Shown here: positions 30,364 to 52,540 of the stretch, piece after piece
Layout of the letters: the number at the start of each line of letters is the position of its first letter
How positions within the stretch are numbered: the first letter of the stretch is position 1
Origin: Limnochorda sp. LNt
GTDB taxonomy: Bacteria > Bacillota > Limnochordia > Limnochordales > Geochordaceae
Reading direction: 5' to 3'
Assembly (NCBI RefSeq): GCF_035593265.1
Contig: NZ_CP141614.1
Span: forward strand, 1,922,001-1,986,000
DNA length: 64,000 nucleotides
Notes under the pieces: generated by a model
The model's database searches: none
The model's input: the letters and a program-made list of their open reading frames with translations, nothing else
Told to the model about the DNA's origin: nothing
Made by a program: the position numbers and the translations under genes

Positions 30364-30752
30364 CTCGCTCGTCTTTCGCCATGCCCGATAGCCGTGCCCT
30401 AAGCCATGGGCATTCGCAAGCCGGCGTAAGCTTCCGAAATCCCGCGATTGAGCCTCATACCACCCCCTGGGCCTTTATAGGCGGCCTTTAGCTAACTTCC
30501 CTCGCCTTGCGTTTCCATACGGAATCGGTTACGGTAAAAGTGCAGAGGCGCTCTTCCCCGGGGGGCGTAGCCATTTCAGGACCGTGAGCGACAACGGCGA
30601 GGGTATACGCAGTGGGCATGGCACCTTTGCCTTCTGCCGGAGCTGCCTCTGCCACCTCGTTAGCGGGGGACCGGACTCCAGGGTCGCAGAACTGGCTAGC
30701 TGTGGGTAGGCCCTGTTATCGATAATGGATAATCGAGGGGATAAGTCCTGAA
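30364..30752 (+). other. Intergenic stretch without a recognisable gene
   Basis: I see no coding signal in these 389 bases. Base composition falls here from the GC-rich backbone to the lower-GC catabolic island, so the island's left border probably lies within it. No direct repeat, tRNA or integrase marks the border. Confidence 0.6.
30716..30725. promoter_or_regulatory. AT-rich palindrome upstream of the GntR-type gene
   Basis: TTATCGATAA is a perfect 10-bp palindrome, followed by GGATAATCGAGGGGATAAG with related ATAA repeats. It lies 28 bases before the GTG of the broken GntR gene and is a plausible autoregulatory operator. No firm promoter boxes were found around it. Confidence 0.4.
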
Positions 30753-31468
30753 GTGCGCACGGTCCAGGCCCGTCTACTGAGAACCCAGGTTTTCGAGGCG
30801 CTGCGAGAAGCCATCGTCACCGGCCAACTTTCCCCAGGGCAGCGGATCACCGAGCTTCGTATTGCCCGAGAGATGGGTACGAGTCAAGCCCCCTAGAAGA
30901 AGAAGGTCTTGTTGAGAGTATACCCCATGTTTGGTCCTTTGTCTCGAACTGGGATATCAGAGAAATGCGCGAAGTATACGAAATCCGGGCAACCATCGAG
31001 GGCTTGAGCGCTGCTCGTACCGTGTCGAGGCTTGTACCGGCGGATTTCGTCGAGCTTGAGAGATTGCTCGATGCACTAGTCGAAGCGGCCACAAAGGACG
31101 ATCCCAAAGCAATAGCCGAAGCTGACCTGGCTTTCCACGCATACGTGAATCGTCGTTCAGAGCATAGAGTTCTGGTCCGCCTCTTCCAGCTGCTCGAAGC
31201 CCAAATTCTTCGCTGCGCTCACATGACTCGCAACCTCACTGGCGCCTACCCACCCGCCAGAGCTCGAGCCGAGCACCAAGCACTTATTGACGCGTTAAGG
31301 ACTGGGCACCCCAAAGCGGCGTCAGAGGCCTTTCGAAACCACGTTAGCTGGGACATTATCGAAGGGAGGTTAGGCCGGGACGCGAGTCCGCACCAAGGCA
31401 CTCCTACCGTGGGTGCCAGAGTCGCCGACCAGTCGTCTGACCGACCTTTGGGGGGAGGACTGACATGA
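30753..31468 (+). pseudogene. GntR/FadR-family regulator broken by a small deletion in the DNA-binding domain
   Basis: Codons from GTG at 30753 give a typical GntR winged-helix start (VFEALREAIVTGQLSPGQRITELRIAREMGTSQAP) and then hit TAG at 30894. The family continuation appears two bases out of frame from 30893 (LEEEGLVESIPHVWSFV) and runs through a complete FCD ligand-binding domain to 31468. The expected VREALRR-type stretch between the halves, part of the recognition helix region, is missing. A deletion of about 20 bases therefore explains both the shift and the loss. An ATG at 30965 could still express the FCD domain alone. It directly precedes the importer genes it should have controlled. 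Confidence 0.8.
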
Positions 31469-32754
31469 ACCCGAGTCGCTACCAAGCCACGGTGTTAACT
31501 GTGTGCCTCGTTTCGCTAGCTCTCGTCGGGTCGCTAGCCACACTTGCCGCGGCAGCGCCTGTAACGTTGCGCTTTCAAAGCTGGCGGCTGGCCGATCCGG
31601 TGTCCGGACCTTTGTACATGAAGTGGATTGCGGAGTACCAGCAGCTTCATCCAAATGTTAGGATTGAACCAGAGCCTGTTCCGCACGCTCAGCGATTGGA
31701 GAAGTTTATCGCACAGGTGCTGGCAGGCGACCCGCCAGACGTGGTGGGACTAACTACCGGTGATGTGGTGCAGTTCGCGGCCCTGGGTCAGGTTGAGAAT
31801 CTTGACCGGTTCTATCAGGCTGAGGGGCCGGAGTTCATTCGCAGCTTTACACCGGTAACCCTTGCCTTGTCGGAGCATGAAGGGTCCTACTACGCGCTGT
31901 CGCATGAAGTAGTAACCACTGACGGCATGTGGTACAATGTGGACCTCCTTGCTAAGGCAGGTCTCGACCCCGAGGAGGCCCTGAGCACGTGGGATGCTTT
32001 CGTAGCTGCTTCCAAGAAGTTGACAGGCGCCGGAACGTACGCCATGGCGTTGCGTGGCAAGGACACCACCGGCTCCATGGCCAATCTGTGGAGCTTTCTC
32101 TCCCAGCTGAGTGGGCCGCTCGTCACTGAGGACGACATACGCAAGAATCTTGATTCTCCTGGCGCCCTGAAAGTGTTCAAGGAATACGTGGAATTGTACA
32201 CCGTACACAAGGTAACGCCGAATCCCCTCGACATTGACTTCACGGCAATGAGCACCCTCTTTGCCCAGGGGCGGACCGCCTTCATGCACAACGGCTCGTG
32301 GATGAAGCCCATTATTGAGCAGCAAAACCCTGCCATGAAGGGTCGCTTCCTACCTTATTCAATTCCCACCTTCGCCGGTGGGAACCGTATCGCCCTCGCG
32401 GACGGCATGGCGTTTATGATTGGAAAGGGTTCCCGGCACGCCAGCGAAGCGTGGGAGTTCATGAAGTTCATGGTTAGCCGCAAAAAGCAGATGGAGAATC
32501 TGGAGGTAGCCGGGTTCCTTCCGTCGCTGACCGAACTGGCGGGGGCCGACCGCATACTAAACGACCCGTACCTCGCGGTGTTCGCGCGTGAACTGGCTGA
32601 ACGTGGAGTACCGCGTCCACGGACGGCGAAGCTTAACGAAATCTGGACTGAGGTGCAACAAGCGTTCCAGGCGGTATTGCTTGGCCAGAAGACGCCGGAG
32701 GAGGCACTCCGGTCCGCAGCGAATCGCATTCGATCGGACATTCTCCGTCCGTAA
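31465..32754 (+). CDS. ABC sugar-importer substrate-binding protein
   Basis: This 429-residue family 1 solute-binding protein has a signal peptide (about residues 1-31, cleaved after LAAAA) without a lipobox cysteine. The mature fold shows WIAEYQQLHPNVRIEPEPVP, DPPDVVGLT, GMWYNVDLLAKAGLDP and WEFMKFMVS. Its ATG overlaps the end of the GntR remnant (ATGA). Codon use and base content are lower in GC than the backbone. Neighbouring enzymes suggest a sugar acid or acidic glycoside as cargo (inference). Confidence 0.92.
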   Translation: MNPSRYQATVLTVCLVSLALVGSLATLAAAAPVTLRFQSWRLADPVSGPLYMKWIAEYQQLHPNVRIEPEPVPHAQRLEKFIAQVLAGDPPDVVGLTTGDVVQFAALGQVENLDRFYQAEGPEFIRSFTPVTLALSEHEGSYYALSHEVVTTDGMWYNVDLLAKAGLDPEEALSTWDAFVAASKKLTGAGTYAMALRGKDTTGSMANLWSFLSQLSGPLVTEDDIRKNLDSPGALKVFKEYVELYTVHKVTPNPLDIDFTAMSTLFAQGRTAFMHNGSWMKPIIEQQNPAMKGRFLPYSIPTFAGGNRIALADGMAFMIGKGSRHASEAWEFMKFMVSRKKQMENLEVAGFLPSLTELAGADRILNDPYLAVFARELAERGVPRPRTAKLNEIWTEVQQAFQAVLLGQKTPEEALRSAANRIRSDILRP

Positions 32755-32767
32755 AGCTGGAAGAGCG

Positions 32768-32814
32768 CGGGCAGGCGACGCACCAAACTTGGGCGTCGTC
32801 TGCCCGATTTTCTT
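32768..32814 (+). terminator. Strong intrinsic terminator inside the importer operon
   Basis: A 14-bp stem pairs CGGGCAGGCGACGC with GCGTCGTCTGCCCG, has an 11-base loop and is followed by ATTTTCTT. It lies between the binding-protein gene and the first permease gene, so most transcripts should stop after the binding protein, giving it higher expression than the permeases. Confidence 0.88.
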
Positions 32815-32848
32815 GACAAGCCTTTGGAGGGGTTTCGGAGGGGTATAG

Positions 32849-33763
32849 ATGCAAGTTACGGCTCGGGTAGCCCCCGCCCAGCCCGTTGGTCGTTCACATC
32901 GATGGCGTCTTAATCCAGTACTTCCATGGATCTTGCCAACGCTTATCATTCTGGCGCTGGTACAGCTGTTCCCGTTGCTATACTCATTCTACTTGAGTCT
33001 CTCTCGGATTTCACTTGATCTCCGAACGGAGCTCATCGGGTTGGCAAATTACCACCGTATCGTCCGGGACCCCACGGTAAGGGCCGCCCTTTGGCACAGT
33101 GTCGTATTCACTGTGGGCGGCGTCGCAGGACAGCTGGTTGTTGGTCTAGTCAGTGCCCTGCTTCTCAACTATGGACTGCGCGGTCAGCGTTGGATGCGGT
33201 TGGCGATGCTCATACCCTGGGTGATCCCTACGGTCATTACCGCCCTAGTGTGGCGATGGATGCTAGACAGTCACTTCGGTGTCATGAATGACTGGCTCGT
33301 TCGTGCGGGTATCCTGGACAGCTTCCGTTCGTGGCTTGGAATGCCAGACACGGCCCTCGCGGCAACGGTGCTCGTAAATGTTTGGAGAGGCAGCCCGTTC
33401 GTCGCGGTGATGCTGCTTGCAGCGCTGCAGCTGATCCCGAAGGAACACTACGAGGCCGCTCAAGTAGATGGTGCGGGCTCCTTCCAGCAGTTTCGGTATA
33501 TTACTCTCCCAGGCGTCATGTACACAATGGCCTTGGCCGGAACGATGAGCGGAATTTGGTCGTTTAAAGAGTTCGCGCTCATTCAGCTGCTTACCGAAGG
33601 AGGTCCGGCAGGAGCAACAGAAGTTGTCGGAACGCTGGTCTACCGCATGTTCTTCCAATACGCCAGGTTCGGCGAGGCTGCGGCCCTCGGGGTTCTTGTT
33701 TTCCTTGTGCTCTTCGTCGCGAGCACGTACTACTTGCGACTGGCGACCAGGATTGAAGACTAG
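32849..33763 (+). CDS. ABC sugar-importer permease, MalF-like
   Basis: This 304-residue permease has six predicted membrane spans and the cytoplasmic EAA loop (HYEAAQVDGAGSFQQFRYITLPG) that docks the ATPase. The start has GGAGGGGT upstream. It forms a heterodimer with the second permease encoded beyond the insertion sequence. The gene ends 17 bases before the element. Confidence 0.92.
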   Translation: MQVTARVAPAQPVGRSHRWRLNPVLPWILPTLIILALVQLFPLLYSFYLSLSRISLDLRTELIGLANYHRIVRDPTVRAALWHSVVFTVGGVAGQLVVGLVSALLLNYGLRGQRWMRLAMLIPWVIPTVITALVWRWMLDSHFGVMNDWLVRAGILDSFRSWLGMPDTALAATVLVNVWRGSPFVAVMLLAALQLIPKEHYEAAQVDGAGSFQQFRYITLPGVMYTMALAGTMSGIWSFKEFALIQLLTEGGPAGATEVVGTLVYRMFFQYARFGEAAALGVLVFLVLFVASTYYLRLATRIED

Positions 33764-33776
33764 CGCGCAACAGTAG

Positions 33777-33780
33777 CTAG
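33777..33780. repeat. Left target-site duplication, CTAG
   Basis: CTAG directly abuts the left end of the insertion sequence and is repeated at 35393-35396 on the right. Confidence 0.7.
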
Positions 33781-35392
33781 TGCCTCCTGACAAAATCGCC
33801 GTCCGTCGTTAGAGGGGAGTCTGGACCTTTGGCAACCCCAGCTCGTCATGCCGCCCTGTCCGGTCCTGCCCCGGCGGGGGTCTGCTCAGGCGCCTGCCGG
33901 GGCCAGGGCCAGCAGCCGGCGGGCCGCCCGGGTCAGGTTGTGGGCAAAGAGGCCCTCCCCGCTCCAGGTCGCTGCCCGCTCGGCGCCCCGATAGCGGCTG
34001 CGGTCGAGTTCAAAGGCGTCTTTGAGATGCGCAATGCGCCCCTCCTGGCCGCTGCGCCAGCGCAGCAACCGCCGAAAGGCCCGGCGTCGCTCGAAAAGTC
34101 GACGAGCCCGACCGCCTCGGGCTGGCAGGGCCACGTGCGCGATGCCCATCGCCCGCAGCGCCGCGTCGTTGGCCCGGCTGCTCATGCCCCGGTCGGCGGC
34201 CACGGCTCGGGGCGTGGCTCCGACCGCGTGGATGTGGCCCGCCACGGCGTCCACCAGCAAGCTGTCGTCGCTGGGATTGCCGACATGCAGCCGCCAGTGG
34301 CTGATGAAGCCCTCCTGGGTCTCCACCAGGGTCAGCTTGTAGCCGAACTCAACGGGCTTCGAAAGCTTCCCCCGCCGGATGGGCCGCGCATCCGGGTCGA
34401 AGAGGCTGACCAGCCGGTCCGGGATGGCCCGGAGGCCCTGCAGCCGAAGCTGGGTTTGCTCCAGTACCCGGCGCAGGCGCTGGGTGTACGTGACCAGGCC
34501 CTGCGCCAGGGCCCGGTAGCGCGCCCCCACGGCTGGGCCGAGCTTTCGGATGCGGCGCTGGACGGCCCGGGCCATGCGCTGCGCCTCTTGAAGCGTCTGC
34601 TCGGCCCGCCGAGCCACTTCGGCGGTAAGCCGGTCCACCTCGGCCTGGGCCTTCTCCCCTCCCCGGCGAAGCATCTGGCCGATGCGGCGCAGCCGGCGGC
34701 GGACCGAGCGCAGGCGGTCTCGAACCGAAAGGCGGACCCCGATGCCGGCTTCCTTGGCCCGGCGCATCAGCCGCGTCAGCACCCGCACCCCGTCGGCCAG
34801 CAGGCCCGCGTCGGTGGGGTGATGGATGTTCGCTTCCATCACCGTGGTGTCCACCCGGATCCGCTGGCCGTGGCGCTTCATCAGCCGCGCCTCCACCAGC
34901 TGGGCCATCAGGGCGTCGTTGAGTTGCTCGATGACTTCCGGACCCAGCCGGTGGGTCAGCTTGATGAGGGTGGTGGCATCGGGCACCTTGTCGGTGAGGC
35001 GCAACCGGCAGAAGCTCCGCCAGACCAGGCTATCGGCCACTTCCTTGACCAGCGCTTCGAAGCCCAGCCGGTAGCGGCGCTTCAGGTACATCATGCGCAG
35101 GTACGTCTCCAGGGGGATGGTGGGCCGACCCCGCCGAGCCGTGAGCTTGCGCCGGATGGGCGAAAGTCTGCGCTCGTCGTCCAGCAGCCGGTCGATGATG
35201 GCCAGCTCCTTGGGCAGCTCGAAGAGCTGGGGGTCGATGAGGCTTTCGAACAGGTCCGCCTTGAAAGCCACGTTGCGCTCCCGACGCACGATGCCATGCC
35301 TCCTGGGGCCGATTTTAGCATCGGTCGGTCTCGGGGAGGAGAGGGGTCACCCCGTCACGACGGGCTTTTCTCGGCGACTTTATCAGGGGCAA
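33781..35392 (-). mobile_element. 1.6-kb insertion sequence (ISNCY/IS5-like, DDE transposase)
   Basis: The element spans 1,612 bases. Its ends form an imperfect 21-bp inverted repeat: TGCCTCCTGACAAAATCGCC at the left and TTGCCCCTGATAAAGTCGCC (complement) at the right, best matched in the CCTGAyAAArTCGCCG core. CTAG flanks both ends. It lies exactly between the two permease genes. Removing it with one CTAG leaves a 36-base spacer that keeps the second permease's ribosome site. Its high GC (72% in one sampled line) contrasts with the island around it. Confidence 0.85.
33886..35289 (-). CDS. DDE transposase of the insertion sequence
   Basis: This 467-residue transposase has an N-terminal DUF772-type domain (IPLETYLRMMYLKRRYRLGFEALVKEVADS), a first catalytic Asp in RIRVDTTVMEANIHHPTD, an Arg-rich insertion (about 185-260), a second region with AADRGMSS and a C-terminal Glu-containing segment near RSGQEGRIAHLKDAFELDR. 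The frame is intact, so the element may still move. It is transcribed against the surrounding operon. Confidence 0.9.
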   Translation of the reverse strand: MRRERNVAFKADLFESLIDPQLFELPKELAIIDRLLDDERRLSPIRRKLTARRGRPTIPLETYLRMMYLKRRYRLGFEALVKEVADSLVWRSFCRLRLTDKVPDATTLIKLTHRLGPEVIEQLNDALMAQLVEARLMKRHGQRIRVDTTVMEANIHHPTDAGLLADGVRVLTRLMRRAKEAGIGVRLSVRDRLRSVRRRLRRIGQMLRRGGEKAQAEVDRLTAEVARRAEQTLQEAQRMARAVQRRIRKLGPAVGARYRALAQGLVTYTQRLRRVLEQTQLRLQGLRAIPDRLVSLFDPDARPIRRGKLSKPVEFGYKLTLVETQEGFISHWRLHVGNPSDDSLLVDAVAGHIHAVGATPRAVAADRGMSSRANDAALRAMGIAHVALPARGGRARRLFERRRAFRRLLRWRSGQEGRIAHLKDAFELDRSRYRGAERAATWSGEGLFAHNLTRAARRLLALAPAGA

Positions 35393-35396
35393 CTAG
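35393..35396. repeat. Right target-site duplication, CTAG
   Basis: This is the second copy of the 4-bp direct repeat flanking the insertion sequence. AAGGGGGG, the ribosome site of the next gene, begins three bases later. Confidence 0.7.
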
Positions 35397-35413
35397 CTAA
35401 GGGGGGCGGCGGC

Positions 35414-36229
35414 TTGAGGCGTCTCACGGTGTATCTCTTGCTTGCTGCGATGGTGATTGTATCTCTTGGCCCTGTGGCTTGGATGGTGTCTACGGCCTTC
35501 AAGCCGAAGTCCGAGACATTCGCGTTACCCACGTACTGGCTACCGAAGTCTCCGACCCTAGACAACTTTGTGGAGGCGTGGCGAACCCAGCCGATTGGAC
35601 GCCAGTTCTTCAACAGCCTTATAGTGGCCAGTTCAACCACCGGCCTTGCTACCGCTCTGGCCATCCTAGCCGGGTACGGCGTCTCCCGCTTCTCGTTCGG
35701 GCAGCGGGACCTGTTCCTTCGCCTCATTCTCGTTGGCCAGATGTTCCCGGGAGTCCTACTGGTTCTTCCCTACTTTATCCTCATGCGGAGGCTGGGCCTC
35801 ATCAATACCTATTGGGCGTTGGTTCTCGCCTACACCTCGTTCGCGCTGCCCTTAGCCACCTGGATGATGCGCGGGTACATGATGGCTGTTCCCCGAGAGC
35901 TGGATGATGCGGCCATGGTCGATGGATGTACTCGCCTGCAAAGCCTTGTCCGTGTGGTGCTACCCGTTGCCAAGCCGGGCATTGTAGCCACCATGATCTA
36001 CACGTTCATGGTGGCGTGGTCGGAGTACCTGTTTGCTCTCGTGCTAACTACGACAAAGCATATGCAGCTACTTACTGTCGGGGTAGGCTCGCTCCTGCTT
36101 CAATACGGGATTGAGTGGAACCAGCTGATGGCCATCGGCTCAATCGCAGTGGTGCCGATTCTAGCCATTTTTGCATTCATGGAGCGCTACCTTGTGGCCG
36201 GGCTCACTGCCGGAGCAGTCAAGGGTTAG
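35414..36229 (+). CDS. ABC sugar-importer permease, MalG-like
   Basis: This 271-residue six-span permease has the EAA loop ELDDAAMVDGCTRLQSLVRVVLPVAKPG and the conserved C-terminus GLTAGAVKG. The likely start is TTG at 35414, eight bases after AAGGGGGG; no ATG fits before the first span. Because the insertion sequence separates it from the first permease, expression depends on read-through or a promoter in the element's end. It partners the permease at 32849-33763. No ATPase gene accompanies the pair. Confidence 0.9.
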   Translation: MRRLTVYLLLAAMVIVSLGPVAWMVSTAFKPKSETFALPTYWLPKSPTLDNFVEAWRTQPIGRQFFNSLIVASSTTGLATALAILAGYGVSRFSFGQRDLFLRLILVGQMFPGVLLVLPYFILMRRLGLINTYWALVLAYTSFALPLATWMMRGYMMAVPRELDDAAMVDGCTRLQSLVRVVLPVAKPGIVATMIYTFMVAWSEYLFALVLTTTKHMQLLTVGVGSLLLQYGIEWNQLMAIGSIAVVPILAIFAFMERYLVAGLTAGAVKG

Positions 36230-36260
36230 CAGTCATCGCCCTGGGTATTGGAGGGGGACC

Positions 36261-37163
36261 GTGTACTCTATCGCAGGCGTTGTTGCTGTGTTGCAGATCC
36301 CATTTCTTCCAGACGGGGAAGTTGACTGGGAAGGACTGAAGAAAATTGCGGTGTTTGCGACCGAGAACGGCGCGTCGGCAGTGGCATTTGGCTACGCCAG
36401 TGAATTTCCGAAGCTAGACACAGCCGAACGGGAGCAGGCTTTACTGACGGCCGTCCAAGCTTGTGAGGGAAGGGTCCCCGTGGTAGCGTGGTGCGCCGCA
36501 GAAAGCACGAGGGTAGCAAGTCGGCTAGTGCGACGCTCCCGGGAACTAGGTGCTTCGATGGCTGTCGTGACACCTCCGCCGGGGGCCGAAAGCTTCGCCC
36601 AGGTGCGGCGCCACCTTCACGAGCTTACACAGGAGGGGCTTCCTCTCGTGCTCCAGGATGCGCCGGAATGGTCGAGGGTGCATCTCTCGGTAGAGCAGCT
36701 TTGCGAGTTGTGCACGACACCTGGGGTAATTGGACTTAAGGTCGAATCTCAACCTACGTGGGTGAGGGTGCGCGCAGTACGCCAACAGCTTGGGAAGCAC
36801 GTCACCGTCCTTGGAGGCTTCGGTGGCCTATACCTATGCGCCGAGCTAGCTGCAGGCAGCGATGGGGTGATGCCCGGCTCAGCGCATCCCTGGGTGTTTG
36901 CCAACGTGATCCGGGCTTTTCGACAGGGTCGTGAAGAAAGTGCGTTGGAACAGTACCGCAACCTGTTGCCGTACCTAGTTGTTAGTTCCCATCGGTTAGA
37001 CGACTTCATTTGGATTCAGAAGGAGATCCTCCGCCGCTTGGGGGTGATTCAGTCGTCGTCGCTTCGACAACCCGGCGAGGCGCCCGATGATTTCACCCTT
37101 CGGCTCGCCTTGAGTCTGGCTGAGCGACTGGGGCTACTGGCTGGAGCTCAGGGTGTGGGCTAA
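36261..37163 (+). CDS. DapA/NAL-superfamily lyase, divergent member
   Basis: This 300-residue TIM-barrel enzyme of the dihydrodipicolinate-synthase/N-acetylneuraminate-lyase family has Schiff-base Lys160 in GVIGLKVES. The usual GSTGE substrate loop is replaced by FGYASEF, and the YNYP tyrosine motif is not evident (LQDAPEW lies there), so its chemistry may differ from the second family member in this operon. The GTG start follows GGAGGGGGA. The substrate is probably a keto sugar acid (inference). Confidence 0.78.
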   Translation: MYSIAGVVAVLQIPFLPDGEVDWEGLKKIAVFATENGASAVAFGYASEFPKLDTAEREQALLTAVQACEGRVPVVAWCAAESTRVASRLVRRSRELGASMAVVTPPPGAESFAQVRRHLHELTQEGLPLVLQDAPEWSRVHLSVEQLCELCTTPGVIGLKVESQPTWVRVRAVRQQLGKHVTVLGGFGGLYLCAELAAGSDGVMPGSAHPWVFANVIRAFRQGREESALEQYRNLLPYLVVSSHRLDDFIWIQKEILRRLGVIQSSSLRQPGEAPDDFTLRLALSLAERLGLLAGAQGVG

Positions 37164-37206
37164 CGGCCGCAGCTACGTCACTATCTGCCGAAGAGGAGAG
37201 GACAGC

Positions 37207-38367
37207 ATGCGCATCGAAAAGGTGGAGCTCATTCGACTCACCTATCGCTACTCGCCGGACCAAGCCTGGGGCTGGCCAGGTGGAACCTATCGGGGATGGA
37301 CAGCCGCCTTCGTCCGGGTCACGGACGACGAAGGGTGTTATGGCATTGGCGAGATTGGCGATGGGTTGCCCGCCCCTCAACTCCTTCCGCCGATCATCGA
37401 GCGGGTGAGACAGATGCTCGTGGGCAAGGACCCTCGCTGCGTCCGTGGCCTCTTAGACCGCCTATATCGCAGCGCCCCCGGTTGGGGCCGCAGAGGGATC
37501 CACATTTCCGTCCTGTCCGGGGTCGAAAGCGCCCTGTTCGACCTGCTTGGCAAGCGTCTCGGCGTTCCAGTGCACGTATTGCTGGGGGGAGCCGTTCGAA
37601 CGCGACTGCCCGTTTACGCAAGCGGGGGCGTTGACTCATCTCTCGATCAGCTCGTTCGAGAGCTAAGAAGTTACGTGGAGCGCGGCTTCACGGCTGTCAA
37701 GGTTCGCATCGGCTATGGGTACGCACGTGATATTGCTATCGTGGAAGCAGCCCGCCATGCGGTCGGGAAAGACGTCCGTCTACTGCTTGACTTTGGGGCA
37801 AGCTACCTACCCTGTCCTCCCAATCTTGTCGACGTGGCGCGGCTTGCGCGAGAGCTGGAGAAGTTCGATCCTTACTGGCTCGAAGAACCGCTGTTTCCCG
37901 ACGATGTCTCCGGTCACCGTCGTCTGCGCCAAATGACGCATATTCCTATTGCCCTCGGGGAAAACACGCGAACACACCACGAGGTGTTGCCTTTCCTGGA
38001 ACAGGGAGCTGTCGATATTCTACAGACCGATGCCGTGTACGCCGGAGGGATGCTTGAACAGCTTCGGATCGCGTCACTGGCCGCTCAGTACGGGGTTATG
38101 ATGGCCCCCCACACGTGGGGCAGCGCGCCTGGCTTGATGGCAAATCTGCACGCATTCGCATGCATGCCAAATGGCTTGATAGCTGAATACTCGCAAATGC
38201 ATAATCCGTTGCGCGAACGGCTTCTCCTGGCACCGCTGCAGCTCGAGCATGGTGAGCTTGTGCTCCCGGAACATGCCGGCCTTGGGATTGACTTACCGGA
38301 ATCATTGGTGTCCGATTACCCTTACGATCCGGATGCTGGTGCTGTCCTGAAGATTGAGTCTGAGTAG
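37207..38367 (+). CDS. Enolase-superfamily (mandelate racemase-type) sugar-acid dehydratase
   Basis: Enzymes of this family abstract a proton alpha to a carboxylate; many dehydrate sugar acids to 2-keto-3-deoxy acids. The 386-residue protein has an N-terminal capping domain and a barrel with Lys165 (VKVRIG), metal ligands Asp195, Glu226 and Glu252, and an Asp275/His302 pair (LQTDAV, APHTWG), the mandelate-racemase subgroup pattern. The ATG sits behind GAGGAGAG. It is flanked by two DapA-family lyases that could cleave its product. Confidence 0.88.
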   Translation: MRIEKVELIRLTYRYSPDQAWGWPGGTYRGWTAAFVRVTDDEGCYGIGEIGDGLPAPQLLPPIIERVRQMLVGKDPRCVRGLLDRLYRSAPGWGRRGIHISVLSGVESALFDLLGKRLGVPVHVLLGGAVRTRLPVYASGGVDSSLDQLVRELRSYVERGFTAVKVRIGYGYARDIAIVEAARHAVGKDVRLLLDFGASYLPCPPNLVDVARLARELEKFDPYWLEEPLFPDDVSGHRRLRQMTHIPIALGENTRTHHEVLPFLEQGAVDILQTDAVYAGGMLEQLRIASLAAQYGVMMAPHTWGSAPGLMANLHAFACMPNGLIAEYSQMHNPLRERLLLAPLQLEHGELVLPEHAGLGIDLPESLVSDYPYDPDAGAVLKIESE

Positions 38368-38380
38368 AGGGGTTGTGACC

Positions 38381-39340
38381 GTGGGCAACACGAGTCTCAC
38401 CGGTATTGTGGTCCCGGTAGTAACGCCGTTGGTCGAGGGGGAGTATGTCGATGTGTCCGCCCTAGGTGCGGAAGTTGACCGCCTCGTTGCTGCAGGGGTA
38501 CACGGCATTTTCGTGTTGGGGTCCACGGGCGAGTTTCCAGCCCTTCGAGAAGGGGAAAAAGAGCGAGCCATCCGGGCCGCTGTCGAGGCCGCCGGCGGGC
38601 GCGTACCAGTGCTCGCTGGAGCCACAGAACCTGGCACCGAGCGCGCCGTCGCCTGGGCGAAGGCCGCAGCACAGTTGGGTGCTGACGCAGTTGTGGTGGC
38701 ACCCCCGTATTACTACCGGATGGACCGCCGGGCTCTTCTTCGTCATTTCAGTGCCGTTGCTAAAGCTTCCCCGATCCCTCTTGTGCTGTACAACTACCCA
38801 CAGACGACGGGTAACGTGATCGACGTCGAGACGGTAAGTGAGCTTGCCCACGCAGCGCTAGTCATTGGCATCAAGGACAGCGGAGGCGACCTCATCTACC
38901 TTCAGTCCCTGACCAGCCGAATGCCAGAATCGTGCACCCGGCTCATCGGTCATGAAGGGCTGGCAGCGGCGGCACTGCTGTGCGGCTACGCGACAGGGGT
39001 CGTTCCCGCTATGGCGGCTGTTGTTCCCGAGTTGTTCGTGAGTCTGTGGGAGGCGTACCGGCGGTCTGACGTTCAAGCCGTCCGCAGATTGCAAGCGGAG
39101 ATAGACCGATGGATTGCTCTATACAGCTTGGGACCCGTCCCGGTGGTGGTAAAGGCATGCCTGTGGTTGCTCGGCCGTCTGCAGAGCCCGCTGGCGACGT
39201 TGCCTTTGGGGCAGCTCGACGTGCAACTCGTTGAGCGCCTTCGGGAGTGGCTTGACTCCCACGGCCTGCCGGTTCGCGAACGGGAGGAGGTAGAGCGATG
39301 GTTCGGCACATTATCGACGTACACGCGCACTTGGGAGTAA
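38381..39340 (+). CDS. DapA-superfamily aldolase (2-keto-3-deoxy acid aldolase or dehydratase-like)
   Basis: A canonical member of the family: GSTGEFPAL loop, Tyr139 in YNYPQTTG and Schiff-base Lys165 in IGIKDSGGD, in 319 residues. It most likely cleaves or dehydrates the 2-keto-3-deoxy acid made by the dehydratase encoded just upstream, giving pyruvate and an aldehyde. A role in lysine synthesis is unlikely in this operon. GTG at 38381 lies eight bases after AGAGGGG; GTG at 38375 and TTG at 38354 are alternatives. Confidence 0.88.
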   Translation: MGNTSLTGIVVPVVTPLVEGEYVDVSALGAEVDRLVAAGVHGIFVLGSTGEFPALREGEKERAIRAAVEAAGGRVPVLAGATEPGTERAVAWAKAAAQLGADAVVVAPPYYYRMDRRALLRHFSAVAKASPIPLVLYNYPQTTGNVIDVETVSELAHAALVIGIKDSGGDLIYLQSLTSRMPESCTRLIGHEGLAAAALLCGYATGVVPAMAAVVPELFVSLWEAYRRSDVQAVRRLQAEIDRWIALYSLGPVPVVVKACLWLLGRLQSPLATLPLGQLDVQLVERLREWLDSHGLPVREREEVERWFGTLSTYTRTWE

Positions 39341-40080
39341 GTGAGACTCTCCAAGTCGGAGTCAACGTCGACGGTTTGCTCCGTCTCATGGACGCCAACG
39401 CGATCGAGATGGCCATCTTGTCACCGATTCCCGGATACGCCGATCCTGACGGTATCCGCGACACGATGGCTCAGAATGACGCTATCGCTGCGGCAGTCAG
39501 GCGGCACCCAGACCGATTCCCGACAGGGTTTGGCACTGTCGAGCCAAGGCACGGAGCTTGTGCTCTAGACGAAGTGAAGCGCATCAGGGAAGAACTGGAG
39601 CTACGTGGGTTAGCCTTTCACTGCGACTACCAGGGAGTACCCATCGACCACCCGATCATGTACCAAATTCTCGAGCGCGCGGCGGCGTACCCAGGTACGG
39701 TGGTACTCATGCATACGGCGCAGCACTCGGTGTTGGAACCGCCGTTCATGCTTGCAAAGGTTGCAGAAGCGTTTCCGGACATCGTCTTTATCAATGGTCA
39801 TCCCGCTATGAACGGGACACATCTCGCCAGTTCGCTCTACGTCAGCCAGAAGTGCTCGAACGTATATCTGGATCTCGCTGTGTGGTATACTACGCGGGAT
39901 CCTGTTCGCTTGGCTGTGACTACGTTGGGCCCTGACCGCATCTTGTTTGGCTCTGACTTACCATATTACCGCTACTCTTTCGATAAGCTCCTAGTCGAAT
40001 ACGCTGAGATACCTGCCGAGGTGAAAGAAGCCATCTTCTGGAAGAACGCAGCCCGACTGTTTGGTATCGGTCGCTCGTAG
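39298..40080 (+). CDS. Amidohydrolase-superfamily (amidohydro-rel 2) metal-dependent hydrolase
   Basis: This 260-residue TIM-barrel hydrolase has metal-binding HAH (His9, His11), a barrel His in GLAFHCDYQG, MHTAQHS, INGHPAMNG and Asp in LFGSDLPYY. Family members include lactonases that open sugar lactones, and decarboxylases; a lactonase would fit between an oxidised sugar and the dehydratase. It overlaps the preceding aldolase gene by 43 bases and begins behind GGGAGGAGG. Confidence 0.85.
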   Translation: MVRHIIDVHAHLGVSETLQVGVNVDGLLRLMDANAIEMAILSPIPGYADPDGIRDTMAQNDAIAAAVRRHPDRFPTGFGTVEPRHGACALDEVKRIREELELRGLAFHCDYQGVPIDHPIMYQILERAAAYPGTVVLMHTAQHSVLEPPFMLAKVAEAFPDIVFINGHPAMNGTHLASSLYVSQKCSNVYLDLAVWYTTRDPVRLAVTTLGPDRILFGSDLPYYRYSFDKLLVEYAEIPAEVKEAIFWKNAARLFGIGRS

Positions 40081-40166
40081 TGGTGGTGTCGCCCCATTAC
40101 CTGGCGTGAGAGACAGCGGATTCGGTGGGCGTCGGCAAGGCACTGACCCAGAAGGGAAGTGAGCGG

Positions 40167-41516
40167 ATGCGCCAGTTTCCGCAGGGCTTCTTGTGGGGAT
40201 GCGCCACCGCCTCCTATCAGATCGAGGGCTCGCCTCTGTCAGACGGCGCTGGACCCTCCATATGGCACCGGTTCAGTCATACGCCGGGTAACGTGTTGGG
40301 CGGCGATACCGGAGACGTAGCCTGCGATCACTACCGCCGATGGCGGGACGACGTGGTCCTCATGCGCGAACTTGGAATTAGAGCTTACCGATTCTCCATC
40401 GCCTGGCCTCGGGTCCTCCCGGAAGGCCGCGGTGCGGTGAACGAGAACGGCCTAGCCTTCTACGGCCGCTTAGTGGACGCGCTCCTCGAAGCAGATATCA
40501 TCCCATTCGTTACACTTTACCACTGGGACTTGCCCGGTTCGCTCCAGGACTTGGGCGGGTGGGCTAACCGGGACGTTGCTGGGTGGTTCGCTGACTACGC
40601 CGATGTGCTTTTTGGTCGGTTGGGTGACCGTGTCCATCACTGGATTACGCTCAACGAGCCCTGGTGCGTGGCTCATCTCGGGTACATCCTCGGCCAGCAC
40701 GCGCCCGGGATGCGTGACCTGTGGGCAGGGTTGCGGGCTGTTCACAACCTCCTGTTGGCTCACGGCCGTGCAGTGCTAGCCTTTCGTCAGAGGAACATGC
40801 CGGAAGGCCGAATCGGCATCACATTAAACTTCCGCCCCCCGCATCCAGGGAGCCAATCAGAACAGGACCGGGCTGCCGCGCGACGCGCGCATGCCTACCA
40901 CAATCGCCTCTTCCTGGATCCCATCTTCACTGGACGCTATCCCGATCCGATCGTCCAATGGTTCAAGGACAGCTGGCCCGAAACACTACAGAGCGACCAG
41001 GACGTTATCAGGGCGCCTATCGACTTCCTCGGCGTAAACTACTACACCCGAAACGTCGTGGTCCACGCACCCGGGACCGGGCTGTTACACACACGCGTCA
41101 TCCGCCAACCGGGACCGCACACCGCGATGGGATGGGAGATTTATCCAGAGGGGCTATTCGAGCTCTTGCTTTGGATCCATCAGGCGTACGGGAGCCCCGT
41201 CCTCTACATTACGGAAAACGGTGCCGCATTCGAAGACCGTCCTGACCCGTCGGGAACGGTACGCGACACCGACCGTCTCGACTACCTTCGCCAGCACTTT
41301 GTGCAAGCTCACCGGGCCATTCAGGAAGGGGTTCGCTTGCAGGGATATTTCGTATGGTCGCTGATGGACAACTTTGAGTGGGCTCATGGTTACTCCAAGC
41401 GCTTTGGGATCGTCTACGTAGATTTCGGCTCGCAAAAGCGCACCATCAAGCAAAGCGGACACTGGTATTGCGGGGTAATCGCCCGCAACGGCTTGGAGAA
41501 TGACGACTTAGGATAA
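40167..41516 (+). CDS. Glycoside hydrolase family 1 beta-glycosidase
   Basis: This 449-residue retaining beta-glycosidase has general acid Glu164 in TLNEPW and nucleophile Glu350 in YITENG. FLWGCATASYQIEG is at the N-terminus and the binding motif GYFVWSLMDNFEWAHGYSKRFG near the C-terminus. There is no signal peptide, so it acts on imported oligosaccharides or glycosides, including 6-phosphate forms if such are made. It is the last gene of the low-GC island. Confidence 0.93.
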   Translation: MRQFPQGFLWGCATASYQIEGSPLSDGAGPSIWHRFSHTPGNVLGGDTGDVACDHYRRWRDDVVLMRELGIRAYRFSIAWPRVLPEGRGAVNENGLAFYGRLVDALLEADIIPFVTLYHWDLPGSLQDLGGWANRDVAGWFADYADVLFGRLGDRVHHWITLNEPWCVAHLGYILGQHAPGMRDLWAGLRAVHNLLLAHGRAVLAFRQRNMPEGRIGITLNFRPPHPGSQSEQDRAAARRAHAYHNRLFLDPIFTGRYPDPIVQWFKDSWPETLQSDQDVIRAPIDFLGVNYYTRNVVVHAPGTGLLHTRVIRQPGPHTAMGWEIYPEGLFELLLWIHQAYGSPVLYITENGAAFEDRPDPSGTVRDTDRLDYLRQHFVQAHRAIQEGVRLQGYFVWSLMDNFEWAHGYSKRFGIVYVDFGSQKRTIKQSGHWYCGVIARNGLENDDLG

Positions 41517-41904
41517 TGCCCCTGGTTGCCGTCACGCGCGGTAGGTCAGGAGAGCCAGGCGTCAGGCAACGAGGTCCCTGAGGTAACCGGCGAACGTGGC
41601 TCGAGGCCCACCTCTACAAGGTGTCCTTCCTCCTGCCGGCGCTGGCGACGGTCGGTCAAGCACAAGGCGTGGTGGCCGCAGCATTGGATGGTCCGTTGAG
41701 GGAAGACGCACATGGCTCCTCCGATCCGCCGGGGCCGGGCGACACGATAGCCCGAGGGGGCAGAAGAGCGGGGCCTCGTCGACTTCCTGACGAGGGAGTG
41801 GCCTGCGCGGGCGCGGGCAGCTCTTGGCCTGGAACATGCAGGTGCTGGTGGCGGGGTGGCGGAGGGCGGCGCCGGCGCCGCCCTCCGGTTTCACACCACG
41901 TGCT
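41517..41904. other. Intergenic stretch between the catabolic island and the chemoreceptor
   Basis: I see no supported gene in these 388 bases. Base composition returns to backbone GC, so the island's right border lies near 41.5 kb. No integrase, tRNA or direct repeat was seen. Confidence 0.6.
41861..41886. terminator. Perfect 26-bp palindrome after the chemoreceptor gene
   Basis: The sequence reads the same on both strands, with arms GGAGGGCGGCGCC and GGCGCCGCCCTCC, and lies 19 bases after the chemoreceptor stop. It could act as a bidirectional stem-loop terminator but has no T-tract in either direction. Confidence 0.45.
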
Positions 41905-47858: not shown

Positions 47859-49544
47859 TCAGCGGAGAGCGCCCACGCGCACCATCCGCCTGGCCAGCCC
47901 GTTGGCCAGGAGCACCAGGGTGGTGGAGATGGCGACCATGATCAGCCCCAACGCCGCCACCCTCCCCCACAGGGCGTCCGCCACCGCCCGAAACACTTGC
48001 ACCGAGAGCACCTCCGTGCCAGGCCGAGCCAGGACGGTGGAGACGTCCAGTTCGCGGACGAACATGACCGCCATCAGCGTCCAGCCCGACAGCACCCCGG
48101 GTAGCGCCAGCGGGGTCACGATGCGGCGAAACGTGCGGAAGAACCCGGCGCCGCTCACCGCGGAGGCATCCTCCAGATCCTTGCTGATCTGAATGAACGT
48201 GCTGGTGAGCGGACGGATCGCATAAGGCAGGTAGGTCGCCACGTAGGCGATGAGAAGCGCCCACAGCGTGCCGTATAGCTCGGTGCGGGCGAACAGCCAC
48301 ATGAAGCCGATGCCGATGATGAGCCCCGGAAACGAGAAGGAGAGGAACGTGAGGGTCTCGAGGATGCCGCTCGTACGCGTGCGCATCCGGACGATGACGT
48401 AGGAGGCGAACGTCGACAGCACGATGCCAGCCGTGGCACCGACGATCGCGAGGGTCACGCTGTTTCGCAGGGCACGCAGGGTCAGGGGGTCGCGAAGGAC
48501 GTAGTTCCAGTGGCGCAGCGTCAACTGTGACAAAGCCTCGGCGCCGGGCGCCATCAGGTAGGGCACCAGGGACGTGTAAAGCAGCACGATCACCGGCAGC
48601 CCGATCAGCACCACGCCCAACGCCAGGACCAACACCCCCAGGGGATAGCGCCACCGTCCCAGATCGGCGATGGTCGGTCTGTACCCCTTCCCGGAGATGG
48701 TGACGAACCGCTCGCTCCGGGCCGTCAGGTAGCGGTAGAGGTAGACCAACACCACCGCCGCGGCCAGCACACTGACGCCCACGGCGGCCGCTCGCCCGTA
48801 GTCGGGCAGAAAGCCGACGCTGATCAGCCGGTAGATGAAGGTGGTCAGCACCTCCACCCTCCCCGGCATGCCCAGCACCGAGGGCACCGCGAACGCACTC
48901 AGGCTCCGGATCAGCACCAGGGTGATCGCGGCGAGGATCGCCGGCCGCAGCACGGGGAGCACGATGCGCCACCACGTAGCGGCCCTGGAGCGGCCGCTGA
49001 CCCAGGAAGCCTCCTCCAGAGACGAGTCGAAGGTGGACATGGCCGCCACGATGACCAGGTAGGCGACGGGCAGGTCCAGCAGGCCCTCCACGAAGATCAT
49101 GCCGGGCAAGGTGTAGATGTTGATGGGGCCCAGGCCCAGCTGGCCCAGGATCAGGTTCATCATGCCGTTGGTGGGGTTGAGCAAGAGCGCCCAGCTGACG
49201 GCGAAGGAGAGGTGGGGGATCATCATGGAGACCACCGGCAGCAAGTGCAGGACGCCGCGGAAGGGGATGTCGGTGCGCAGGTTGAGGTAGGCCAGTACCA
49301 GGGCGAGCGCCGTGGCCAGCAGGGCCGAGCCGAACGAGAAGATGATGGTGTTGACGACCACTTGCGCCAGGCGCGGATCGCCGTACACCCGCGCATACTT
49401 CTCCAGCGTGAAAGTCCCCACGGCCCCCAGACCTTTGGAGAAGCTGCCGACGACCAGCATCGCCGCCGGACCAAGGGTGAGGCCCCCTACGATGACGACC
49501 AGGATGCCGATGGCGAGGGATGCACGCAGGCTGTGACTGGCCAT
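47859..49544 (-). CDS. Iron-type ABC importer permease (FbpB-like, two fused halves)
   Basis: This long permease has about 12 membrane spans from two fused BPD-transporter domains, each with an EAA-like loop (SSLEEASWVSGRSRAATWWRIVLP and KDLEDASAVSGAGFFRTFRRIVTP). The arrangement is typical of ferric-iron, thiamine or 2-aminoethylphosphonate importers. ATG at 49544 has GGAG eight bases upstream and starts five bases after the ATPase stop. Its binding protein gene upstream is truncated, so the importer may be dead or rely on another binding protein. Confidence 0.88.
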   Translation of the reverse strand: MASHSLRASLAIGILVVIVGGLTLGPAAMLVVGSFSKGLGAVGTFTLEKYARVYGDPRLAQVVVNTIIFSFGSALLATALALVLAYLNLRTDIPFRGVLHLLPVVSMMIPHLSFAVSWALLLNPTNGMMNLILGQLGLGPINIYTLPGMIFVEGLLDLPVAYLVIVAAMSTFDSSLEEASWVSGRSRAATWWRIVLPVLRPAILAAITLVLIRSLSAFAVPSVLGMPGRVEVLTTFIYRLISVGFLPDYGRAAAVGVSVLAAAVVLVYLYRYLTARSERFVTISGKGYRPTIADLGRWRYPLGVLVLALGVVLIGLPVIVLLYTSLVPYLMAPGAEALSQLTLRHWNYVLRDPLTLRALRNSVTLAIVGATAGIVLSTFASYVIVRMRTRTSGILETLTFLSFSFPGLIIGIGFMWLFARTELYGTLWALLIAYVATYLPYAIRPLTSTFIQISKDLEDASAVSGAGFFRTFRRIVTPLALPGVLSGWTLMAVMFVRELDVSTVLARPGTEVLSVQVFRAVADALWGRVAALGLIMVAISTTLVLLANGLARRMVRVGALR

Positions 49545-49549
49545 CTTGT

Positions 49550-50647
49550 TCACTCCAGGATGCGGCAACCTGCAGGCTCGATGACCAGCGTCAACTGCTG
49601 GCCCTCTTGCGCCGGAGGGGTGGTGCTGCCGAGCCGCATGGTGAGCCGAGTCTCTTGGACCGCCACCTCAGCGTCGTAGTGCTCGCCCACGAAGATGAGC
49701 GACTGGAGTCGGCCTCGCACCACGTTGGGCCGACCCTCATCGCCGGGCGCAGCAGGTCGGATGGCTTCGGTACGAATATAGACGGTCACCCGGGAGCCCG
49801 GAGACGCACTGGCCTGGCCTTCGCAAAGCAGCAGGCCCAGCGGCGTCTCCACCCGCACGCGATCGCCGTCCCGCCCGGCCACCGTGCCGTCGACGAAGTT
49901 GGACCCTCCCAGGAACTCCACCACGAACCGCGACCGAGGCCGGAAGTAGATCTCCTGGGGAGTACCCATCTCGACCACCGATCCATCTTTCATGACCACG
50001 ACCAGGTCGGACAGCGCGAGGGCCTCCAGGCGATCGTGGGTCACGTAGAGGGCGGTGATCCCCAGTTGCGTCAGGAGCTTGCGCAGATCCCGCCGGGTCT
50101 CCTCCCTTAGCTTGGCGTCGAGGTTGCTCAACGGCTCGTCGAACAGGATGATGCGCGGCTGCGAGACCAGGGCGCGGGCCAGCGCGACGCGTTGCTGCTG
50201 GCCTCCGCTGAGGGCGGTCGCCGGGCGCCGCTCGAAGCCGCTCAGCTGGACGAACTCCAGCGCCTCCCGCACCCGCCGCGCGATCTCCGCGCGCGACAGC
50301 CCGCGCGCCTCCAGGGGATACGCGACGTTTTGAAACACCGTCATGTGGGGCCAAATGGCGTACGTTTGAAATACCATGCTGACGCCCCGTCTGTCCGGCG
50401 GGACGGACTTAGGGAGACCGCCGTCGCCCCTCGACCAGACCACCTGCTCCCCAAACGCGATCTCGCCGGCGTCGGGCGACTCCAACCCGGCGATGCACCG
50501 CAACAGCGTCGTCTTGCCACAGCCGCTGGGCCCCAGCAAGGTGGTCACCTGGTGAGCGGGGACGGTGAGGGTGACGTCCCGCAAGGCGGCGACGTCCCCC
50601 TCGGCAGTACGAAAGGTCTTGCGCAGTTGGTGGATCCGGATCTCCAT
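49550..50647 (-). CDS. ABC importer ATPase (FbpC/PotA-like)
   Basis: This 365-residue ATPase energises the adjacent permease. It has Walker A GPSGCGKTTLL, Q-loop, signature LSGGQQQRVALA, Walker B IILFDEPLSNLDA, the switch His in YVTHDRLEA, and a C-terminal TOBE regulatory domain (about 270-365). It is the only ABC importer ATPase in the window, but its class matches iron or polyamine-type systems rather than the sugar importers. Confidence 0.93.
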   Translation of the reverse strand: MEIRIHQLRKTFRTAEGDVAALRDVTLTVPAHQVTTLLGPSGCGKTTLLRCIAGLESPDAGEIAFGEQVVWSRGDGGLPKSVPPDRRGVSMVFQTYAIWPHMTVFQNVAYPLEARGLSRAEIARRVREALEFVQLSGFERRPATALSGGQQQRVALARALVSQPRIILFDEPLSNLDAKLREETRRDLRKLLTQLGITALYVTHDRLEALALSDLVVVMKDGSVVEMGTPQEIYFRPRSRFVVEFLGGSNFVDGTVAGRDGDRVRVETPLGLLLCEGQASASPGSRVTVYIRTEAIRPAAPGDEGRPNVVRGRLQSLIFVGEHYDAEVAVQETRLTMRLGSTTPPAQEGQQLTLVIEPAGCRILE

Positions 50648-50722
50648 GGATGCCTCCCACTCTGACGTCCACGCGTGCTTGGCGCCGCGGCTCGCCAGGC
50701 GGGCGGCCGGACCGCGACCTCA

Positions 50723-50755
50723 CACGAAGAGGACCCGCCACCGACGAGCGGGTCC
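50723..50755 (-). terminator. Stem-loop between binding protein and ATPase genes
   Basis: On the minus strand GGACCCGC-TCGTCGGTG-GCGGGTCC is followed by TCTTCGTG. It is a GC-rich stem with a weak T-tail, suited to partial termination between the binding protein and the transport genes. Confidence 0.6.
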
Positions 50756-50795
50756 CTCCTCAGAGTCGGGCAACGGTACGGCGCCTGGCGAGGAT

Positions 50796-51691
50796 CTAGC
50801 GGAAGATGCGAGCGAACTCCTCCGCCCACTGCTCCAGCTCCAGATCGGACATGGTGCGAAGCGGCAACACCCGCGCCTGATCGATGCCGTCGATGGGCGG
50901 GTAGACACCCTCGTGAAGCACGTACTCGCCCACGTCTCGAGCCAGGATCTCCTGGGCCGAGCGACTCAGCCAGTAATCGATGAAGAGCCTGGCGGCGTTG
51001 GGATGGGGTGCCCTGGCGGCCAGAGCGATCCCCCGTGGGGTCCCGAACATGGGCTCCTTGACCCTCGCCCAGTCGAGCGGTGCCGGGGCCAGCGTGACGA
51101 TGTACTTGGGCATGGAGATCCCGATGAGAGCCTCACCGGAGGCGATGGGCCCGGGGGTCGGCCCGAAGGAGGCGACGAACATCGGCTCGTTGGCGGCCAG
51201 GCCCCGTATGAACTGCCACCAGGCCTCCTCCGACCCGAATACGTTGTGCTCCTTGAGGCCGACCAGCCACTGGACGGTCGTCGCGTGCGCGCTCGGATCG
51301 GGCATGACGATGCGGCGCCGCCACTTGGGATCGGTCAGGTCCATGTAGCTGGTGGGCACGTCCCCCGGCGCCACCAGTTGCTTGTTGTAGATGAGAGCGA
51401 CGTACTCGATGCCGAAGACCTGGATGACTCCGTCTGGGTCGCGGCTCCACTCGGGGTACGCCTCAGCGGCCGGTGACCGGTAGGGCGCCAGCACGCCCGC
51501 GTCCTTGAGGATCTCGAGCAGCGGTACGGGCGCTTGCAGCACGGAGCCCTGGGATCGGCCAGTCTGGTGCTCGGTCAGCACCGTGGGAGCGAAGCCGGCG
51601 GTGGACATCCGCGTATAAAGAGCCTTGACGCCGTACTCCCGCTGGAAGGCCTCCAGGATCGGCTCGATGGACGGCCACCGCAGGAGCCTGG
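50796..51691 (-). pseudogene. Iron-type ABC substrate-binding protein, 5'-truncated at tRNA-Lys
   Basis: The frame encodes most of a periplasmic-type binding protein (VFGIEYVALIYNKQLV, AARLFIDYWLSRSAQEILARDVGEYV). Homologous coding continues upstream of the first ATG at 51608 (WPSIEPILEAFQREYGVKALYTR) to about 51683. It then runs straight into the tRNA-Lys 3' end with no start codon, ribosome site or signal peptide. Roughly the first 30-40 residues, including the export signal, are lost. It is therefore probably nonfunctional, although the frame remains open. Confidence 0.8.
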
Positions 51692-51699
51692 AACCTGAC

Positions 51700-51774
51700 T
51701 GGTGCCGCCGGTGGGAGTCGAACCCACAACCATCGGATTAAAAGTCCGCTGCGCTGCCGTTGCGCCACGGCGGC
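51700..51774 (-). tRNA. tRNA-Lys (TTT)
   Basis: Complete cloverleaf of 75 bases: acceptor GCCGCCG with CGGCGGC, anticodon loop CTTTTAA (TTT), T-arm GTGGGTTCGACTCCCAC and encoded CCA. A truncated gene begins within ten bases of its 3' end, the position used by many site-specific integrases. Confidence 0.97.
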
Positions 51775-51783
51775 CCGTCGGCA

Positions 51784-52080
51784 TTATACGAACGGTCGGG
51801 CCCCCCGATCAACCGGCGCTCCTGTGCTCCCCCCGCCGGCGCTCCTGTGCTCCCCCGCGCCGTGAGCCGCCAGGGTGGCGAGGATGCTCCGGGTGTGCTC
51901 CCGCTCGTGCTCGATGGTGCGCCGCAGCGCCTTGCGACCGGTCCAGCGTTCCGTCGTGATGTCGCAGTACCAGGAGGGCTGGACCACCCGGTTGAGGCGC
52001 TCCAGCGGCGTCGTGCGGAAATACCAGGTCTCTGCCAGGCGAGGCAACGGCCGCCAACCGGCCTTCCGCCCACGGATCCG
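51784..52080 (-). pseudogene. DinB-like protein fragment (C-terminal part)
   Basis: The minus strand encodes RLAETWYFRTTPLERLNRVVQPSWYCDITTERWTGRKALRRTIEHEREHTRSILATLAA. It resembles the last third of DinB-family proteins, where WTxRKxLRRxxEHEREHT is the characteristic helix. The rest of a four-helix DinB protein is not found upstream, where the frame turns basic and meets the divergent cupredoxin gene. Low certainty: it may be a remnant of a gene lost in rearrangement next to tRNA-Lys. Confidence 0.4.
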
Positions 52081-52141
52081 CGCGCCCCCGCGGCTCGTAT
52101 CACCCAGCGAGAGCAAGCCGCGAGGAGGTGCGGTCTGCGAG

Positions 52142-52540
52142 ATGAAAGGCTGGCGACGGCGACAGGCGCGCAGGCGGGCAGCGTCGGCCCTGGCGGTGGG
52201 GCTCCTGCTGGTCATGGCGACCGTGGCCCTGGCCGCTCAGCAGGAGCAGGTGCTGCGGGTCGACCTGCAGGAGTGGCAGCTGGGCTTCCGCACGGTGGAG
52301 GTCCAGGGCGGGCGGCTCCGGGTGGAGGTGGTCAACGGCGGCCGCTTGCACCACGCCTTCGAGATCCGGGGGCCGGTGGGCGGCGCGGGCTTCACCGTGG
52401 CCACCGAGACGCTGCAACCGGGGCAGCGAGCCGTGCTGGTGCTGGAGCTGCCGGCGGGGGAGTACGAGGTCTTCTGCCCCGTGCCGGGCCACGCGCAGGC
52501 CGGGATGACGGGGCGCCTGGTGGTGAGGGCGGGCGGCTGA
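52142..52540 (+). CDS. Exported cupredoxin (type 1 copper protein)
   Basis: This 132-residue secreted protein has a signal peptide with an Arg-rich start (RRRQARRRAASALAVGLLLVMATVALA) and a plastocyanin-like beta barrel. The expected type 1 copper ligands are present: His71 (LHHAFEI), Cys112, His117 and Met122 (FCPVPGHAQAGM). It probably carries electrons at the outer face of the membrane; its partners are not visible here. AGGAGGT lies about 13 bases before the ATG. Confidence 0.85.
   Translation: MKGWRRRQARRRAASALAVGLLLVMATVALAAQQEQVLRVDLQEWQLGFRTVEVQGGRLRVEVVNGGRLHHAFEIRGPVGGAGFTVATETLQPGQRAVLVLELPAGEYEVFCPVPGHAQAGMTGRLVVRAGG

Follow-up and report, generated by a model that had tools for sequence, protein, structure and literature searches.

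Tyrosine integrases insert genomic islands at tRNA genes, a behaviour already well known and set out in the description of the Islander database (PMC4383910). The tRNA-Lys locus analysed here is like the islands of that description in that the tRNA gene bounds variable DNA, the boundary falls at the tRNA 3' end in two related genomes (G002 and G003), and an integrase lies beside the same tRNA in a third (G001). It is unlike them in that our genome has no nearby integrase or displaced tRNA fragment, and in that its break comes 28 bases after the CCA rather than at the tRNA end. The genome belongs to the Limnochordales, an order for which one report gives three closed genomes from isolates (PMC11456536). 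Our window, the whole stretch of 64,000 bases that was analysed, spans positions 1922001–1986000 of a genome assembled as one contig of 3,019,339 bases. The family comparison covers this genome and the three just named, of which G001 is from the same genus.

Behind tRNA-Lys, on the minus strand, lie the genes for a solute-binding protein, an ATPase and a permease, in that order and in a single operon (Table 1). It resembles iron-type (FbpA/AfuA-like) ABC importer operons in combining a PF13343 binding protein, a PF00005/TOBE ATPase and a permease with two PF00528 stretches, and in that the closest solved structures of the binding protein by sequence are mainly called iron-binding (best E 1.2e-12); among these relatives are also proteins that bind aminoethylphosphonate and pyridoxal phosphate. 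It differs in that the binding protein here has no signal peptide or first strand. The importer is named iron-type by similarity, and its substrate is putative. The ATPase and permease share 75% and 84% amino acid identity, respectively, with those of G008, a Bacillota metagenome-assembled genome (locus L004); the permease has 569 residues, or fewer with a later start. Strong hairpins can form between the binding-protein and ATPase genes (50648–50795) here and in G007 and G008, and perhaps govern how much of each protein is made relative to the other.

Table 1. Features at the tRNA-Lys locus, in window coordinates.
Feature	Position	Strand	Evidence
Permease gene of the importer with two permease domains, seemingly intact	47859..49568	minus	PF00528, two stretches
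ATPase gene of the importer, seemingly intact, 365 aa	49550..50647	minus	PF00005 E 6.1e-36, TOBE_2
Binding-protein gene without 5' end, likely pseudogene	50796..51671	minus	PF13343 E 6.9e-20 and ortholog comparison
Spacer, 28 bases, CCA to binding-protein similarity	51672..51699	minus	sequence
tRNA-Lys(UUU), complete	51700..51774	minus	ARAGORN (anticodon TTT)
Predicted sigma-70-like promoter of tRNA-Lys (TTGATC, 18, TATAAT)	51783..51812	minus	sequence motif
DinB-like gene tail, 5' part missing	51829..52023	minus	G001 match, E 8e-22

The truncation of the binding-protein gene is real. Its frame lies on the same strand as tRNA-Lys, with a stop that ends at 50796, and similarity to other binding proteins starts only at 51671, beyond the CCA that is encoded in the DNA at 51702–51700. 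A sequence-only reading of this locus had carried the similarity to within about ten bases of the CCA; going upstream, the frame meets its first stop at 51740, within the tRNA gene, which explains that impression. The first ATG is at 51608, and upstream of it the frame contains no ATG, GTG or TTG. The open frame holds neither the signal peptide of an exported binding protein nor a start for one. What is missing, the signal peptide and the first conserved strand, amounts to some 43 codons of the closest ortholog. Of the 59 relatives searched in addition to this genome, 8 have a whole close homologue, and all of these align from query residue 10 or 11, which bears out the earlier view of a gene without signal peptide and start next to tRNA-Lys. 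A second collection returned 22 loci, and all eight with at least 56% identity align from residue 11. In each ortholog whose start was within the sequence read, that point is preceded by a signal peptide and by a conserved strand, FYANIT or YANMT. The closest ortholog (G008, 84% identical) and that of G007 (78% identical) are intact and come from genomes of the same taxonomic order as ours.

The importer is patchily distributed. Binding-protein matches of at least 61% identity, whole or partial, were found in 10 of the 59 relatives: whole in G007, G008, G043, G047, G053, G055, G056 and G057, and partial in G041 (68%, residues 11–161) and G032 (61%, residues 11–46). At that identity the protein is absent from G001, G002 and G003. 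Either transfer or vertical descent with losses would fit this pattern, and composition does not decide between them. The importer has a G+C content of 67.2%, against 69.3% for the window, and a third-position G+C of 0.85–0.91, so composition does not mark it clearly as foreign, although the patchy distribution suits gain or loss.

The binding-protein gene is single copy: its sole match in the genome is itself. Using an N-terminal profile built from five rows and accepting E values up to 10, we did not detect the missing 5' part anywhere in the one-contig 3.02-Mb genome, a search that a decayed remnant could escape; the profile matched the retained part only (model positions 49–68, E 8.5e-6). 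This points to deletion rather than to a split gene. It also bears on the idea of an assembly join at tRNA-Lys. Although tRNA genes can mislead assemblers, this genome is one contig, its only repeat of the tRNA 3' end is a 22/25 match at tRNA-Leu, and a misjoin of two true loci should have left the 5' part elsewhere. We consider an assembly join very improbable.

The tRNA-Lys 3' end is a variable site in this little-studied bacterial family: the DNA directly after it differs in all four family genomes, this one included. G001 is 92% identical to our genome over 51694–51794, and blastn matched nothing else of its 5.9-kb contig to the window. There a tyrosine integrase, broken into pieces and reading towards the tRNA, abuts tRNA-Lys (PF00589, E 4.0e-7 and E 6e-7, or E 7e-14 if two frame breaks are bridged). 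These breaks may be sequencing errors, since G001 is a draft in some 800 contigs. PF00589 matches are present in 14 of 14 genomes searched and in 14 of 14 control genomes; because tyrosine recombinases are this common elsewhere, it is the position alone that matters at tRNA-Lys.

The sister pair G002 and G003 fixes the boundary. The two share 98.6% identity across 4.7 kb that ends at G002 780056, a single base beyond the CCA. Beyond it they carry unlike DNA, 11.1 kb in G002 (780057–791183) and 2.2 kb in G003 (456862–459096), after which they rejoin, collinear and 97.3% identical. The G002 segment includes relatives of two genes of our window, a family-1 glycosidase (73.6% DNA identity) and a LacI-type regulator, and the G003 segment includes a 5'-nucleotidase-like gene. 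Taken together, these comparisons support the idea of an integration site, with the tRNA-Lys 3' end as a switching point in the family. A tRNA search of loci L004–L011 (eight loci) and L026–L033 found none, so that of the loci read only the one in this genome has a tRNA next to the binding-protein gene.

The sequence-only reading had seen in the truncated gene the scar of an element that integrated or was excised. For the site this view is supported by the G002/G003 boundary just past the CCA and the G001 integrase. For the present genome it does not fare as well, and two of the three Islander-type features that we tested are missing. An intact tRNA gene does lie at one end. The whole genome holds no second tRNA-Lys 3' end with up to three mismatches in 25 except the similar end of tRNA-Leu, although shorter or more diverged copies could escape such a search, and no displaced tRNA fragment marks another end; within the window the best further sites have three (tRNA-Leu) and four mismatches of 23. 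Nor is there an integrase within 400 kb of tRNA-Lys, the nearest of three PF00589 matches in this genome being about 429 kb away. In the relatives, too, a search of G002 (770001–790000 and 790001–810000), G003 (450001–470000) and L058 found no displaced tRNA 3' fragment apart from the tRNA itself; the only other site, in G002, has six mismatches of 23.

The upstream side of tRNA-Lys is also broken. The DinB-like tail aligns to residues 205–267 of a 267-residue frame in G001, a protein that matches DinB_2 (E 6.9e-12), and residues 1–204 of that frame have no convincing match in the window. The stretch upstream of tRNA-Lys in G002 matches our genome at 1211640 and 2795809, far from the window. 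Moreover, window positions 17.6–43.7 kb are collinear with G002 821–848.7 kb, yet in the opposite orientation with respect to clpX and tRNA-Lys. The surroundings of tRNA-Lys have been rearranged more than once, the upstream flank included.

A general rearrangement could explain both breaks. In such a case an inversion or translocation by illegitimate recombination, with the tRNA not an integrase target, would have truncated both neighbours of tRNA-Lys at their 5' ends, in keeping with the inverted block and with the displacement of the family's usual upstream neighbours. Against it, the G002/G003 boundary and the G001 integrase mark the tRNA end as special, and a balanced rearrangement is not sufficient by itself when the missing 5' part is absent. 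We regard a general rearrangement as possible though rather doubtful.

Two particular inversions were considered and rejected as the cause of the truncation. The 17.6–43.7 kb inversion relative to G002 is real, yet it does not account for the lost 5' part. A simple inversion between tRNA-Lys and tRNA-Leu(UAG) should have left the 5' part to the left of tRNA-Leu, where there is a PIN-domain gene. The two tRNA genes adjoin in seven of the ten genomes searched from other families of the order (G006, G007, G009, G010, G011, G012 and G013), while the short loci read from G004, G005 and G008 do not show the pair; in all three loci fetched more widely (L100, L101 and L102) the pair lies beside genes that match window 6–12.5 kb. 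In our genome tRNA-Leu(UAG) is at 24.4 kb of the window in the other orientation, contained in the inverted block (17600–43700). About 3 kb with little coding signal (12850–16000), beside tRNA-Gly, lies near where the other families keep the pair.

We think it probable that the binding-protein gene lost its start when DNA was deleted or rearranged at an integration hot spot, which left the importer behind the tRNA promoter. The tRNA-Lys(UUU) 3' end would be a family hot spot of DNA gain and loss, at which a tyrosine-integrase element had been active at least once in the family. A deletion, as we infer the event to have been, or a rearrangement would have fused a short flank past tRNA-Lys to the inside of the binding-protein gene; an integrase element may have taken part in this genome's break. 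The promoter, signal peptide and first strand of the binding protein would have been removed and the ATPase and permease genes left intact. The spacer was rejected both as a decayed gene start (p 0.25 and 0.87 against two ortholog starts) and as a flank in common with G001 (p 0.15), and gave no significant alignment with either.

The operon may now depend on its new neighbour. Since it begins 28 bases behind tRNA-Lys and runs in the same direction, read-through from the tRNA promoter, or else a weak internal start, would drive its transcription. The promoter-like site at 51812–51783 was found once, against 0.1 expected from shuffles, and by eye G001 has a similar TATAAT at the same position by tRNA-Lys. 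A terminator search of 50500–52200, spacer included, detected none. It is conceivable, if highly improbable, that recombination at the tRNA 3' end captured the importer, so that the ATPase, the permease and the signal-less binding protein are now made from a tRNA-Lys transcript that runs on through the operon, with the shortened protein still of use to the cell.

The retained body of the binding-protein gene shows little decay. Its 291 codons have no stop or frameshift, and compared with G008 they give a dN of 0.12 and a dS of 0.86. Lineage-specific replacements number 13 here, 17 in the intact G008 gene and 32 in that of G007. Decay no greater than that of an intact gene means that the break is young relative to the split from G008, or that the body is still used. 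A young pseudogene is most likely. The low replacement count could also reflect continued use, in which a shortened protein is made from the ATG at 51608 or from an unusual start (for example CTG 51683) and the importer is functional, perhaps relying on a different binding protein. The open frame and the replacement count agree with such use, but the protein has lost its signal peptide as well as the conserved YANIT strand, no second binding-protein match exists in the genome, and a young break would give the same pattern of replacements. We hold that the protein is most unlikely still to be made.

A gene scar next to a tRNA is ordinary in kind, and no general view is changed by this one. The locus records a break, likely recent, in one gene of an importer operon that is otherwise intact and now lies behind a tRNA promoter, and it is of use for annotation and for choosing loci in studies of gene gain and loss in the group.

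Positions 30364–41900 of the window are 11.5 kb at 60.7% G+C, against 69.3% for the window, with genes for a sugar-type binding protein, a permease, an enolase-superfamily protein, a DHDPS-like protein, an amidohydrolase and a family-1 glycosidase; the two genes that flank them lie only about 140 bases apart in G002, and the stretch is likely a gained island. In G003, about 20 bases past the CCA of tRNA-Lys (L060 9097–9060), there is a stretch like a tRNA 3' end (CCCCCGTCCGCACCA) that resembles the end of the window's tRNA-Leu and may be a displaced tRNA fragment. The same genome carries a 32-base tRNA-like 3' end without a tRNA gene (L053 1501–1532) and, at G003:C2:7419, a complete tRNA-Leu(CAA) some 230 bases from an integrase; these are possibly the two ends of an island.
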